This document shows positions 13,758 through 21,481 of a stretch of DNA of 64,000 bases, piece after piece. Under the pieces are notes generated by a model. The model did not search any database. It saw nothing but the letters and a program-made list of their open reading frames with translations, and was not told where the DNA came from. The stretch is from an uncultured Bacteroidota bacterium (GTDB lineage Bacteria > Bacteroidota > Bacteroidia > Chitinophagales > Chitinophagaceae). How positions within the stretch are numbered: the stretch's first letter is position 1; the number at the start of each line of letters is the position of its first letter. The stretch lies in contig CAIJXU010000029.1 in the NCBI GenBank assembly GCA_903824725.1, positions 1-64,000 of the forward strand. The letters are read 5' to 3'. A program made the translations under genes and the position numbers.

Positions 13758-14477
13758 CTATACGACCGATGCTTTAGTGCATAAAGCAACATCATACATA
13801 CTTGGATTCATTAAATAATGATCGTACAACTTAGTTAAAAAAGTAATTTTCACTAAGCCTGCTACATTTTTAACATCAAACTGTTGCATTAACTTAGTCC
13901 GATGTCCTTCGATGGTGCGTTTACTATGCCCAACTTCATAAGCTATTTGTTTACTAGAAGCTTCCTCGCAAATCCTTACTAAAATATATTTATCATAGAT
14001 AGTCAGTTGGCGCATTCTTTCCATTTGCTTGATTTTACCCATTTGATTTACTAAGGCAAAAACTTTATCTGCAATACTAGCGCAAAAATATACCTTGTCT
14101 TGTTCTGCCATTAATAATGCCTTCACCCACTCCTGCTCTGATACCTGCCTTGAAACAATGACCGAAAAACCAATATCGATTAAGTTATACAAGTGCAAAT
14201 CATCTTCTTCATTAAATAATATCATAATAGGTATGCGCTTTTTAATAGATTGAATTGTTATAATGGTTTGTGATTGAGCAAAGTTTAACATGCCACTATC
14301 TAGTACTAAAACTTGAGGAGCATCTGTTTTCAGATGATCTAGGGACATCATTTCATTCAATTCCTTTAGGGTATGGATGATACAATACCCATTAAACTTA
14401 GGATGATCATGAAGAAGTGACCCACATCCTATCGCATACACTGTTTGTTGATCACATATGATTACTTGGCTTTGCAT
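13758..14477 (-). CDS. LuxR-family response-regulator-like transcription factor
   Basis: ORF 13758..14513, ATG at 14477 preferred; C-terminal HTH KQIAYEVGHSKRTIEGHRTKLMQQFDVKN; degenerate receiver-like N-terminus. Confidence 0.8.
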   Translation of the reverse strand: MQSQVIICDQQTVYAIGCGSLLHDHPKFNGYCIIHTLKELNEMMSLDHLKTDAPQVLVLDSGMLNFAQSQTIITIQSIKKRIPIMILFNEEDDLHLYNLIDIGFSVIVSRQVSEQEWVKALLMAEQDKVYFCASIADKVFALVNQMGKIKQMERMRQLTIYDKYILVRICEEASSKQIAYEVGHSKRTIEGHRTKLMQQFDVKNVAGLVKITFLTKLYDHYLMNPSMYDVALCTKASVV

Positions 14478-14572
14478 AAATAAGGCTTCTTGGTTTATAA
14501 TAAAGTAAAACAACGATAAGCTTATAATACATTGATAAACAAACCTATGTTAAAGTATCAATGGCAATAAAA

Positions 14573-14680
14573 ATGATGACAAAGGGCCCTAATCATGTAT
14601 TTTCTATTATCCTAACATTCACTCTAAAGACTTCGTATAAAGTAGTGATTAAATTAAACCCCCTAATTATTTGTCAGTAA
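14573..14680 (+). CDS. Possible 35-aa small ORF upstream of the ATP-grasp gene (MMTKGPNHVFSIILTFTLKTSYKVVIKLNPLIICQ)
   Basis: Uninterrupted frame read from sequence; no independent support. Confidence 0.15.
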   Translation: MMTKGPNHVFSIILTFTLKTSYKVVIKLNPLIICQ

Positions 14681-14735
14681 TATAAATTTTATAACTTCAT
14701 TCATAATTACTAACCATTCCACTATCTAATCATCA

Positions 14736-15848
14736 TTGCGTAACCTATTTTATCCCTTTGTTCCAATTGGTCATTTGAAAGTTTGGGTGCTTGCTCCCGC
14801 CTTGGATAATCCTGACCCCAATTTATCTTACTACTATGATTTTAGTCAAAGTATCGAGGAATATACACGCGTATTTGCTGAACTTGAATTGCCTTGGCAA
14901 TGGCAACCTGTTTCATTAGAAACTTATAAAACTATTATTCAAGAAATAGCAAATGAAAGACAAAAGGGATTATTTTTCCCTGTTGTTTTAAATTTATGCG
15001 ATGGTGATGAAATAAATGGTGCACCAGGATTATCGGTAATTAAAGCATTAGAGGAAAAACAATTAGTCTACACAGGAGCGGATGATTATTTTTATGATAT
15101 CACCACTTCAAAAATTCCAATGAAGAAGGCTTTTGATGAAGCGGGTGTCCCTACTCCAAAATGGGAAGCCATTAAAATAAATGCAGAGGTTAAACCAAAG
15201 GAGCTCATCAAAAATTTAGGGAGTCCATTAATTGTAAAACCAGCCGTATCTGGTGGCAGCTTAGGATTAGGAATTAAAAATGTAGTTGATAACCCTACTG
15301 ACTTGCAATTACAATTAGATAAAATGTTTGAAGGGTATAGAGGATGGGATCTTGCAACAGATGGAATTTTAGCAGAATCTTTTGTACAAGGACCAGAATA
15401 CACGGTCATGATTGTTGGAACTCATCATCAGCCAGAGTATGCTAAAATTTATCCGCCTGTGGAAAGAGTGTTTCACGCTTCTCTTCCTGAAAATGAAAAA
15501 ATATTATCCTTTGATCGACTTTGGGAAATTTATGAAGATGAAACACCCATGCCTGCTGACGAAAATTTTTACCAATATCAAGCTAGCCCAAGCGAAACTA
15601 AATTAGCCATTCAACAAATTTCATGGGATGCGTATGCTGCAGTTAATGGTACTGGATACACTAGAGTAGATGTTCGAGTTGACGCCAAAACGGGTAAGCC
15701 TTATGTTCTCGAAGTAAATGCACAGTGTGGTATCAGTGAGGATGAGAACTACACTTCTATTGGGGCTATTCTTAGATTTGCCAATCAAAGCTTTACCGAA
15801 TTAGTGATTCATATTATCAATGACGCATTCGCTAGACGAAAAAAATAA
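14736..15848 (+). CDS. ATP-grasp ligase, D-Ala-D-Ala-ligase-like
   Basis: 370-aa ORF; TTG start with an in-frame TAA at 14727; ATP-grasp motifs (SPLIVKPAVSGGSLGLGI, VLEVNAQCGIS). Confidence 0.85.
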   Translation: MRNLFYPFVPIGHLKVWVLAPALDNPDPNLSYYYDFSQSIEEYTRVFAELELPWQWQPVSLETYKTIIQEIANERQKGLFFPVVLNLCDGDEINGAPGLSVIKALEEKQLVYTGADDYFYDITTSKIPMKKAFDEAGVPTPKWEAIKINAEVKPKELIKNLGSPLIVKPAVSGGSLGLGIKNVVDNPTDLQLQLDKMFEGYRGWDLATDGILAESFVQGPEYTVMIVGTHHQPEYAKIYPPVERVFHASLPENEKILSFDRLWEIYEDETPMPADENFYQYQASPSETKLAIQQISWDAYAAVNGTGYTRVDVRVDAKTGKPYVLEVNAQCGISEDENYTSIGAILRFANQSFTELVIHIINDAFARRKK

Positions 15849-15852
15849 AATT

Positions 15853-17292
15853 ATGCGCCCCCTCCCCCTTTTAAATGATACAGCTAGTTTTGCCCAATTG
15901 AAAATTTGTGTTTTACAACCCGATTATTCAACCTCTGGCGTCGATTACCAATATTATGATCCTAAAAGAAACCTCTCGGCCTTTATGCCTGAAGCGCATA
16001 TTGATCATATCTTTTTAAATAAATTGACTACCTACCAACAACTTAAACAGTTAAAGGAAAAAAATTACGACATCTATATTAATTTATGTGAAGGTTATTT
16101 AGAGTGGAAAGTGCCTTCCATTGATGTGATTATGAGTTTGGATTTATTAGGACTTCCTTATACTGGTCCTACTGTGAATTTGTACGATCCACAAAAAACA
16201 ATCATGAAGTATTTGGCTTTTTGTGAAGATGTAAAAACACCAGCGCATGTATTAATTGAATCAGCAGATGACTTATCCTTATTGCCAGGAAATTTAAATT
16301 TCCCTTTATTTGTAAAGCCGGCTAAAGCAGGTGATAGCTTAGGCGTGGACGATGCTTCTAAAGTGACCAATCAAAAAGAATTAATAACAAAAGTAAATAA
16401 AATAGTAGCCGAATTTGGTTCCGCTTTAGTGGAGGAGTATATCGAAGGCCGTGAGTTTACAGTATTAGTATGTGGCAATGCAGATGGTAAAACTTGTACA
16501 AGTTTTAAACCTGTTGAATATATTTTTCCCGAAGGTTTTGCTTTTAAAACCTATGCCTTAAAAACTTCCGAATTACACCCTAATGCAAATATTCCTGTTG
16601 AAGATACAAATTTGGCAAAGCAACTACAATCCATCGGCGAACAACTATTTATGTCGTTTAGTGGTGTTGGCTATGCTCGTATGGATTTTAGAATGGATGC
16701 AAAAGGCGATATCTATTTTTTAGAAATTAATTTTACTTGTTCTGTTTTTTACGAAAAAGGATTGGAAGGTTCGGCAGATTATATTTTAATGCATGACGCT
16801 GCAGGTCAGAGAGGATTTTTGGAACGCATTATTATTGAAGGCATGGCGCGTTATCAAAAAAAGGAAAAATTATTTTTAATCAAAGGGAATGCTATTTCGG
16901 GATATGGGATTTATGCAAAATATGATCTTCCTAAAAACACACTTCTATTTAAAGGGGAAGAAAAAGCACAACGCATCATTACCAAAAAATATATGGACGA
17001 AAATTGGGATGAGCGAGAAAAATTAAACTTTAGACGCTACGCCTATCCGATAGGTAAGGAAGTATATATATTATGGGATTTGCAACCCGAAGAATGGGCC
17101 CCTCAAAATCACCACTGTGATGCCAACTGCGGTTATAAGGGTTTAAATGTCATCACTAAAAAAGATATTAAAAAAGGCGAAGAACTTACTTTGGATTATG
17201 CTGATTTTTTAGACCATACCATGGAACCATTCCGATGTAGTTGTGGAGACCCTAAATGTAGGGGTTTGATAAAAGGGAATGTTCAGTTTTAA
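15853..17292 (+). CDS. ATP-grasp ligase fused to C-terminal SET-domain methyltransferase
   Basis: ORF 15820..17292, ATG at 15853 follows the upstream stop; ATP-grasp (FPLFVKPAKAGDSLGV, FLEINFTCSVF) then SET motifs (GYGIYA, NHHCDANCGY, GEELTLDYAD) and post-SET CSCGDPKCRG. Confidence 0.87.
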   Translation: MRPLPLLNDTASFAQLKICVLQPDYSTSGVDYQYYDPKRNLSAFMPEAHIDHIFLNKLTTYQQLKQLKEKNYDIYINLCEGYLEWKVPSIDVIMSLDLLGLPYTGPTVNLYDPQKTIMKYLAFCEDVKTPAHVLIESADDLSLLPGNLNFPLFVKPAKAGDSLGVDDASKVTNQKELITKVNKIVAEFGSALVEEYIEGREFTVLVCGNADGKTCTSFKPVEYIFPEGFAFKTYALKTSELHPNANIPVEDTNLAKQLQSIGEQLFMSFSGVGYARMDFRMDAKGDIYFLEINFTCSVFYEKGLEGSADYILMHDAAGQRGFLERIIIEGMARYQKKEKLFLIKGNAISGYGIYAKYDLPKNTLLFKGEEKAQRIITKKYMDENWDEREKLNFRRYAYPIGKEVYILWDLQPEEWAPQNHHCDANCGYKGLNVITKKDIKKGEELTLDYADFLDHTMEPFRCSCGDPKCRGLIKGNVQF

Positions 17293-18252: not shown

Positions 18253-18966
18253 ATGCTTATGGGAAAAATTCATCCGCCTGCTTTTATTGAACCCTTCTCT
18301 CCTTTTTGGTGGGAATGTATGGTTATGATTATTTTAATTATCACTATTGTGGTTCGAGTTCCCCTTCATTTCAAAAAAGTAAATGTTAAAACCTACGCTA
18401 CTTTTATAGCTTTGTTTTTTTCAATTAATTTCTTAGTTGAAAATTATTACAATTATCAAGAAGGGTATTGGAATGTAAAACAAAATCTTCCTGCTCACTT
18501 ATGTAGTATCAGTTATTTTTTGTGTATTGCTTTATTGCTAAACTACAAACAATGGTTGGCTGAATGTGTTTACTATTGGGGCTTAGCAGGAGGTATTCAT
18601 TCCTTACTTACACCAGAATTTACCCTTGGAATGGATGGCTATAATTTTTATGCTTACTTTATTGATCATGCTGGTATGCTATTGGTGATTGCTTACATGA
18701 TATTACATTTGGATTTTAGGCCGCGCCCCAAATCTTGGATTTGGATATTTGGTTATACTCAAATAGTAGCGATTGGTGTTGGCCTTGTTAATTATACAGT
18801 GGGCGCTAATTATATGTATTTATCTGCTAAGCCTGAAGTGAATAATCCTTTTGTTATTGGCGAATGGCCTTATTATATCCTTGTATTAGAATTGGTAGGC
18901 TTATTACATTTTTGGGCATTTTACTTGCCTTTTGCTAAAAAAAATAAACAAGTTTTTGTTCATTAA
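18253..18966 (+). CDS. TIGR02206/YwaF-like integral membrane protein
   Basis: 237-aa multi-TM ORF; PAHLCSISYFLC motif typical of the family. Confidence 0.7.
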   Translation: MLMGKIHPPAFIEPFSPFWWECMVMIILIITIVVRVPLHFKKVNVKTYATFIALFFSINFLVENYYNYQEGYWNVKQNLPAHLCSISYFLCIALLLNYKQWLAECVYYWGLAGGIHSLLTPEFTLGMDGYNFYAYFIDHAGMLLVIAYMILHLDFRPRPKSWIWIFGYTQIVAIGVGLVNYTVGANYMYLSAKPEVNNPFVIGEWPYYILVLELVGLLHFWAFYLPFAKKNKQVFVH

Positions 18967-19405: not shown

Positions 19406-21481
19406 ATGAGATCATTGTTTATTTCCTTGTTAATCATATGGACCAATTCCATTACAGCACAAAACACAAGCAGCCCTATTATTAGAACGGATAAAATTAC
19501 CATTGCAAGAGATCAGTTTGGCGTTCCTCATATATACGCTCCTACCGATCCCGAAGTAGCTTATGGTTTAGCATGGGCACATGCCGAAGATGATTTTACC
19601 ACTATTCAAACTTTAATGTTAACAGGTAAAGGAAAATTAGCCACCTATTTAGGAAAAAAAGGAGCTACTGTAGATTATGTCGCGGGATTGCTGAACACCA
19701 AAGCTACTGTGATAGCACAAATGAATAGTTTAGATCCAAAATTTATTCAATTAGTAAAAGGATATTTATTAGGATTAGAAGCTTATGCAAAAGCACATCC
19801 TGATCAAGTACTCAATAAACATGTTTTTCCAATTAGTATAGAAGAATATTTATCTGCTACTGTTTTTTCGGTAGCTGTATTTTGTGGAGTAGACAAAGCT
19901 TTGCCTAAAATTTTAAATGGCACTATTCCGGCATTACCTGGTTTTACTGGAGAAGGTAGTAATTCCTTTGCCATCCACTCTAGCAAATCTGCTTCGGGTG
20001 AAAATATGTTAGTGATTAACGCCCATCAACCTATCGAAGGTCCAACTGCTTTTTATGAGGCGCATTTACAAAGTGAAGAAGGTTGGAATATTTTAGGAGG
20101 ATTGTTTCCTGGTGCCCCATTAATTTTTCATGGTGTTACACCCCATTTGGCCTGGGCGCATACCGTGAACTTGCAAGATAAAATAGATGTGTATCAACTT
20201 GAAACAGATCAGCAACATCCTAATCAATATAAAGTAGATGGAGAATGGTTAACACTAGAAGTTAGAAAAATTAAATTAAGTATTAAAGGTATTCCGATTC
20301 CAATTTATAAAACAGCATACACTTCAATATATGGACCTACTGCTAAAACGCCTTCTGGGCAATACTTTTCGATGCGTCTTCCTTCCTTAATGGATGCAGG
20401 TGCATTACAACAATGGTATGCCATGAATAAGTCGCAAAATTTTACTGAATTCAAGGCAGCGCTTACGCAAAACCATTTAGCTATGTTTAATATTGTATAC
20501 GCCGATCAAAAAGATACCATATTTTATATATCCAATGGAAAGATGCCTTACCGAAATGGCGACCCTGCTTATCATTGGAACAGCACTGTTCCTGGTAATA
20601 CGCGTGCCACTTTATGGACTACTTTTAAACCATTAAGCGCACTTCCTCAATATCTAAATCCAAAAAGTGGATACTTATATAATACCAATCATTCTCCTTT
20701 TTTAGCTACTGCCGAAAATGAAAATTTGAGCGCAGCAAAATTTGATGCTTATGATGGTTATGAATTAACTCATAATAATCGAAGCCGTCGTGCAAAGGAT
20801 TTAATTGATGGCCTTGATAAAATTAGTTACGAAGATTTAAAACGAATCAAATTTGATCGTCAACTTCCTGCTAAAATTTTATACCCTTATGGCTATACTG
20901 CTGATTCCTTATTCATGGTGGATGAAACAAAATACCCTTTATTATCTCCACTTATCATTAGTTTAAAAAATTGGGACCACAATGCGATAGCCGAAAGCAA
21001 TGGTGCCTTGATTTATAATTTAGCTTACTATTCCATTCCTCCTTTAATGGCTGATCGTAAAAATGAAAAGTTAAGCATGAGCGAAGCGGTGGCTACTTAT
21101 CAATATGTGTACGATTATTTAATGAAACATTTTAATCGGCTCAATGTAACATTAGGTGAAATGCAAAGATTGGTGAGAGGTGATGAGCATTGGCCACAAG
21201 GTGGAATGCCCGATGTTTTAGCGGCAGTTCAATCTGAACCTTTTGGAGCAGGTCAAAGAAAAATGAATAGTGGAGATGCTTATATTTCGTTGGTTCGTTT
21301 TCCTAAGAATGGCGACTTGCCTTTGATTGAAACTGTAAATACTTTTGGCGCAAGTAGTGTGAAAGGAAATAAACACTTCGCTGATCAGCGTGCTTTATAT
21401 CAAGCGCAACAATTAAAAAAGATGACTTTGGATAAAAACGAAATATTAAAAAATGCTGAAAGCATTTATCATCCTCAATAA
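19406..21481 (+). CDS. Penicillin acylase / N-acyl-homoserine lactone acylase family Ntn hydrolase
   Basis: 691-aa ORF; signal peptide; VPHIYAPTDPEVAYGLAWAHAEDDF; autoprocessing-type site GEGSNSFAI. Confidence 0.88.
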   Translation: MRSLFISLLIIWTNSITAQNTSSPIIRTDKITIARDQFGVPHIYAPTDPEVAYGLAWAHAEDDFTTIQTLMLTGKGKLATYLGKKGATVDYVAGLLNTKATVIAQMNSLDPKFIQLVKGYLLGLEAYAKAHPDQVLNKHVFPISIEEYLSATVFSVAVFCGVDKALPKILNGTIPALPGFTGEGSNSFAIHSSKSASGENMLVINAHQPIEGPTAFYEAHLQSEEGWNILGGLFPGAPLIFHGVTPHLAWAHTVNLQDKIDVYQLETDQQHPNQYKVDGEWLTLEVRKIKLSIKGIPIPIYKTAYTSIYGPTAKTPSGQYFSMRLPSLMDAGALQQWYAMNKSQNFTEFKAALTQNHLAMFNIVYADQKDTIFYISNGKMPYRNGDPAYHWNSTVPGNTRATLWTTFKPLSALPQYLNPKSGYLYNTNHSPFLATAENENLSAAKFDAYDGYELTHNNRSRRAKDLIDGLDKISYEDLKRIKFDRQLPAKILYPYGYTADSLFMVDETKYPLLSPLIISLKNWDHNAIAESNGALIYNLAYYSIPPLMADRKNEKLSMSEAVATYQYVYDYLMKHFNRLNVTLGEMQRLVRGDEHWPQGGMPDVLAAVQSEPFGAGQRKMNSGDAYISLVRFPKNGDLPLIETVNTFGASSVKGNKHFADQRALYQAQQLKKMTLDKNEILKNAESIYHPQ

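Follow-up and report, generated by a model that had tools for sequence, protein, structure and literature searches.

Analysis of a 64,000-nucleotide stretch of DNA (hereafter, the window) identified two adjacent genes, one encoding an ATP-grasp ligase (PAR) and the other an ATP-grasp-SET fusion protein (FUS), which together with a standalone SET protein of about 165 aa (sSET) form an enzyme set that is carried by many Bacteroidota. The parts are of known kinds; their combination appears to be undescribed in the open-access literature. On balance, we consider it probable that PAR, FUS and sSET make up a small-molecule route that combines SET-mediated methylation of an amino acid with ligation by Ddl-type ATP-grasp enzymes and, in some lineages, export.

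The PAR-FUS locus

The window has a GC content of about 34%, and its relatives are Sediminibacterium-like Chitinophagaceae. The features of the locus, and the sSET gene of the same genome, are the following.

13758-14513, minus strand: divergent LuxR-type response-regulator-like gene (GerE, E 8e-7)
14736-15848, plus strand: PAR, Ddl-like ATP-grasp ligase, 370 aa, TTG start
15853-17292, plus strand: FUS, ATP-grasp-SET fusion, 479 aa, likely ATG start
15853-16860, plus strand: N-terminal ATP-grasp domain of FUS, approximately residues 1-336 (PF07478, E 3e-22)
16861-17292, plus strand: C-terminal SET and post-SET domain of FUS (PF00856, E 3e-10)
C76:6811-7278, minus strand: sSET of the window genome, on a different contig from PAR and FUS

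The only plausible in-frame start of PAR is the TTG codon, located 3' of an upstream stop at 14727; position 14477, where the preliminary description began, falls within the regulator ORF, and the ligase proper begins at 14736. The FUS ORF spans 15820-17292 on the plus strand, with the likely start at the ATG at 15853, 4 bases downstream of PAR. Two adjoining genes with Ddl-like ATP-grasp domains had been described from the letters alone, and Pfam bears this out: PAR matches Dala_Dala_lig_C (PF07478) with E 9e-17, and this match and both domain matches of FUS exceed the curated cut-offs. The SET and post-SET motifs that had been quoted for FUS (GYGIYA, NHHCDANC, GEELTLDYAD and CSCGDPKCRG) are all found in its sequence.

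The divergent gene gave a significant Pfam match to GerE, with the receiver domain under the cut-off. The LuxR-type regulator of the preliminary description is thus present and divergent, but its association with the enzymes does not extend beyond part of the family: a LuxR/GerE gene accompanies PAR and FUS in some 30 of the retrieved loci, chiefly those of the window's own clade, and is a candidate regulator of PAR and FUS in that clade only. The scan for promoters and terminators gave no signal usefully above shuffled sequence. A defence system was rejected because PADLOC gave no match, and a plasmid- or phage-borne origin was likewise rejected for want of a match. Two further genes are kept downstream in the window's clade, encoding a TMEM164-family integral membrane protein (window positions 18253-18966; PF14808, TIGR02206) and a penicillin-amidase or PvdQ-like acylase (19406-21481; PF01804).

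Conservation of the active sites

In the ATP-grasp domain of FUS, residues K119, K155, E201, K237, R276, D278, E291 and N293 are invariant in 61/61 dereplicated proteins, and the matching ATP/Mg-type residues are invariant across 49 dereplicated PAR homologues. In the SET domain, N419, H420 and C422 are present in all 61 proteins, and Y449 and the post-SET cysteines C462, C464 and C469 in 60/60 rows that reach the position. In the GxG motif, 6/61 proteins have another residue in place of the first glycine and 1/61 in place of the second; the fourth zinc-type cysteine, C426, occurs in only 15/61 and is also missing from sSET and from BurB (see below). The residues being essentially invariant, neither the ATP-grasp nor the SET domain looks dead, and inactive domains were rejected as an explanation; loss of ATP/Mg or SAM-site residues had been named in the preliminary description as a result that would count against the system.

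The AlphaFold model of FUS (27 sequences) has a mean pLDDT of 87, and the best Foldseek matches of its N-terminal half are D-Ala-D-Ala ligases (E 2e-18). PAR and FUS are recognizable as ATP-grasp proteins by Pfam, by the invariant residues and, for FUS, by fold, and FUS as a SET-domain methyltransferase by the Pfam SET match, the NHxC motif, the tyrosine and the post-SET cysteines.

Distribution and gene arrangement

A scan of species genomes yielded 77 loci, 76 of them at 52-98% identity to FUS and one a Ddl; two entries with non-Bacteroidota names were taken as mis-binned or mis-named. FUS homologues are found at approximately 75 independent Chitinophagaceae loci, and the PAR-FUS tandem recurs, at 50-98% identity, in tens of independent assemblies, which rejects chance or misassembly. 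The sSET gene is usually located 5' of PAR, and outside the clade of the window many loci have the order sSET-PAR-FUS. Pfam searches with each half and tabulation of homologue neighbourhoods, both proposed in the preliminary description, confirmed the unit and showed it to be broader than could be seen there, with sSET as a third component and with transporter links in some lineages.

A gene of the ABC_membrane_3 family lies immediately 3' of FUS in 17 of the 53 dereplicated loci that have downstream room. ABC-transporter genes join the locus in some lineages only, and the link is not universal. One subclade has an amino-acid permease gene and a DUF1295 gene upstream.

In the phylum sample, diverged FUS proteins (35-39% identity) were detected in other families. 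One such genome (G212) has FUS and sSET-PAR on separate contigs, and two genomes (G211 and G341) encode FUS with neither PAR nor sSET, which makes FUS the widest-spread component. FUS proteins more diverged than those of Chitinophagaceae are also encoded in green sulfur bacteria, assigned as such via the Fenna-Matthews-Olson protein in the three genomes tested, where the order is sSET-FUS-ABC exporter-short SET. PAR was not found genome-wide in green sulfur bacteria carrying sSET-FUS. In several green sulfur loci (L117, L118, L120 and L122-L126), a further, minimal SET protein (about 120 aa) brings the number of SET domains per operon to as many as three.

Co-inheritance of the three enzymes

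The same 249 Chitinophagaceae genomes were used for FUS, PAR and sSET. FUS was counted in 74 of these genomes and PAR in the same 74, including one (G510) whose match is to a PAR gene at the end of a contig, with FUS itself not seen. The sSET gene was detected in 73 genomes, that is, in 72/74 carriers of PAR and FUS and in 1/175 non-carriers, the exceptions being G621 and G516, which have PAR and FUS without sSET, and G512, which has sSET without PAR and FUS. The corresponding Fisher p of 3e-59 ignores shared ancestry and is descriptive only. In nine genomes, including that of the window, sSET does not adjoin PAR and FUS and yet is kept; this retention of unlinked sSET is a stronger argument than the p value. 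The flanks of those unlinked sSET genes that were examined contain no informative shared partner. The coupling of ligation with methylation, first suggested by the fusion, is still the natural reading of a conserved, co-inherited unit with intact-looking domains.

Further small SET proteins are encoded in the window genome (C70:41296-41592 and C89:38204-38518); such proteins are common in Chitinophagaceae, with or without FUS.

The SET domains and their relationship to BurB

SET domains are usually taken as a sign of protein (histone-like) methylation. The sSET profile, however, matched BurB with E 4e-24, compared with 1e-11 for the next best matches, histone methyltransferases, and the window genome's own sSET scored 65.5 bits with BurB against 28.8 for the next. 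The three top PDB matches of the sSET model (pLDDT 92.5) in the Foldseek search were all BurB. The controls, two generic SET proteins encoded in genomes of other Bacteroidota, matched MLL-type histone methyltransferases first, and BurB was not among their 60 best matches. By profile, own-copy score, fold search and controls, the similarity of sSET to BurB is specific.

BurB of Burkholderia thailandensis (PDB 9l4t and 9l4v), a small standalone SET protein like sSET, converts free methionine to S-methylmethionine (PMC12542666). In the malleicyprol pathway it carries out the first step of DMSP synthesis, whereas the partners of sSET are ATP-grasp ligases. The two proteins have in common a T-x-Q segment (Thr73 and Gln75 of BurB) and a YxSTE motif immediately N-terminal to the methionine-carboxylate-binding residues (PMC12542666); the NHSC motif appears as LLHSC in BurB. 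Of the BurB side chains that contact SAM (Arg42, His93, Arg133 and His138), the equivalent of His93 is kept in the sSET alignment, and those of Arg133 and His138 are not. Methionine is held in BurB by main-chain contacts (PMC12542666), so the substrate of sSET is not confirmable from sequence. For the SET domain of FUS, the best PDB match of the profile is BurB (E 4e-14, 55.7 bits), followed by KMT2A (E 1e-12, 51.2 bits), whereas the single-sequence search gave 32.8 bits for KMT2D and 27.8 for BurB; by profile, this domain stands barely nearer to BurB than to the MLL-type enzymes, and its affinity is ambiguous.

The nearly equal scores of the FUS SET domain with MLL-type enzymes would suit a protein-modification reading, close to that of the preliminary description, in which FUS and PAR attach an amino acid or a short tag to a protein by TTL-like chemistry and the SET enzymes methylate lysines on the protein or the tag. 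Most characterised SET enzymes are indeed protein-acting, and a eukaryotic protein, TTLL12, combines an ATP-grasp (TTL) and a SET-like domain in one polypeptide, as FUS does (PMC3520985). We nonetheless regard protein modification as unlikely. The co-inherited sSET specifically resembles BurB (PMC12542666), which makes the equation of SET with protein-lysine methyltransferase unsafe here; the ATP-grasp domains belong to the Ddl type, which links free amino acids, and not to the TTL or RimK type; and no conserved gene for a substrate protein adjoins the locus. TTLL12 itself is reported to catalyse neither histone methylation nor tubulin tyrosine ligation (PMC3520985). Its ATP-grasp domain is of the TTL type, whereas that of FUS is of the Ddl type, and FUS, unlike TTLL12, has active-site residues that appear intact. 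The domain order of TTLL12 is the opposite of that in FUS.

Proposed pathway

In the small-molecule route that we favour, sSET would use SAM to methylate a free amino acid on its side chain, with conversion of methionine to S-methylmethionine as the leading candidate and lysine or histidine as alternative substrates. Ligation would then fall to PAR and to the N-terminal domain of FUS: each would convert a carboxylate into its acyl phosphate and couple this to an amine, a chemistry predicted from the intact Ddl-type sites, to give a di- or tripeptide-like molecule. The SET half of FUS may subsequently methylate the substrate or the product of its own ligase domain, and the ABC transporter that adjoins the locus in some lineages would export the product. 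In favour of this pathway are the co-inheritance of the three enzymes, the invariant active sites, the specific likeness of sSET to BurB, and the ABC-transporter and permease genes next to some loci. Several observations count against it: two FUS genomes lack sSET; PAR is missing in the green sulfur bacteria, G211 and G341; and the unconserved SAM-contact residues of sSET, the ambiguous SET domain of FUS and the lineage-restricted transporter link have to be accommodated.

Both the ABC exporters at some loci and the role of ATP-grasp ligases as the defining enzymes of graspetides would also fit a route in which the ATP-grasp enzymes made lactam or ester links in, and the SET enzymes methylated, a ribosomal precursor peptide encoded elsewhere. 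Such RiPP tailoring is improbable given that the ATP-grasp family is Ddl-like and that the surroundings of the operon lack a conserved small ORF: every match was either an enzyme gene read out of frame or an unrelated ORF of 78 aa, the only one outside the enzyme genes, so that the precursor gene near the ligase that characterizes graspetides was not found. The lack of a conserved nearby small ORF that could serve as a peptide substrate speaks for the small-molecule route.

Tentatively, the small-molecule route could represent a new biosynthetic class. A BurB-type SET enzyme would methylate a free amino acid, and the bifunctional ATP-grasp-SET enzyme, either alone or together with another ATP-grasp ligase, would ligate it and add further methylation; the resulting peptide metabolite would be cationic (a sulfonium or a quaternary ammonium) and secreted. 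Such a class would be present in about 30% of the sampled Chitinophagaceae species and some green sulfur bacteria; we rate this more specific proposal as possible rather than probable. BurB is a small-molecule exception among SET enzymes, and a conserved partnership of BurB-like SET, ATP-grasp-SET and ATP-grasp enzymes would widen that exception. If true, it points to a metabolite of common freshwater and soil bacteria and of green sulfur bacteria.

The ATP-grasp domains and known ligase systems

PAR and the N-terminal half of FUS share with Ddl and VanA the fold and the ATP/Mg-binding residues. Their scores are far under every Ddl/Van cut-off (in NCBIfam, 87.5 bits against 243 for PAR and 84.1 against 245.65 for FUS), and the acceptor-side segment after E-x-N, VNTxPG... 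in Ddl-type enzymes, is replaced by EINFTCSVFYEKG in FUS and EVNAQCGISEDEN in PAR. The window genome encodes a separate true Ddl, which scores 341.5 bits against a cut-off of 310 and reads EVNTVPGQSDAS after E-x-N. The low scores, the replaced segment and the separate Ddl reject the identification of PAR or FUS as a Ddl or Van ligase and indicate that they are ligases for other substrates. Although D-Ala-D-Ala, D-Ala-D-Lac and D-Ala-D-Ser ligases are the nearest characterised relatives, the same three observations, and the lack of adjoining cell-wall genes, make it very improbable that PAR and FUS serve as alternative ligases for D-amino acids and change the termini of peptidoglycan stem peptides, with methylation as decoration.

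Small operons of the amidoligase or L-amino-acid ligase kind, among them those of BacD and of predicted pathways for peptide synthesis by ATP-grasp enzymes, combine ATP-grasp and modifying enzymes with transporters; none of them is known to include a SET enzyme. The PAR profile also matches BacD weakly, but PAR and FUS group in a separate clade. For ATP-grasp and SET domains in one protein, the open-access literature gives only TTLL12, which is weak evidence of novelty, most subscription papers being outside the search. The suggestion that the system is undescribed has held up to the same extent: no account of it was located in the open-access literature, with subscription papers and domain-architecture databases outside the search.

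In the midpoint-rooted ATP-grasp tree, which has long branches, PAR and the ATP-grasp domain of FUS are sister groups with 100/100 support, apart from Ddl, a split consistent with a putative old duplication within the system. Other Bacteroidota families possess a separate conserved operon with two tandem Ddl-like ATP-grasp genes (L127, L131, L136, L139-L144, L147 and L149), usually together with genes for a GNAT acetyltransferase and lysine 2,3-aminomutase (KamA) and often beside recG. A common origin with these KamA-associated pairs was rejected because they fall on the opposite side of the tree, with PAR and FUS in a clade of their own. The KamA operon may be linked to acetyl-beta-lysine-type solutes.
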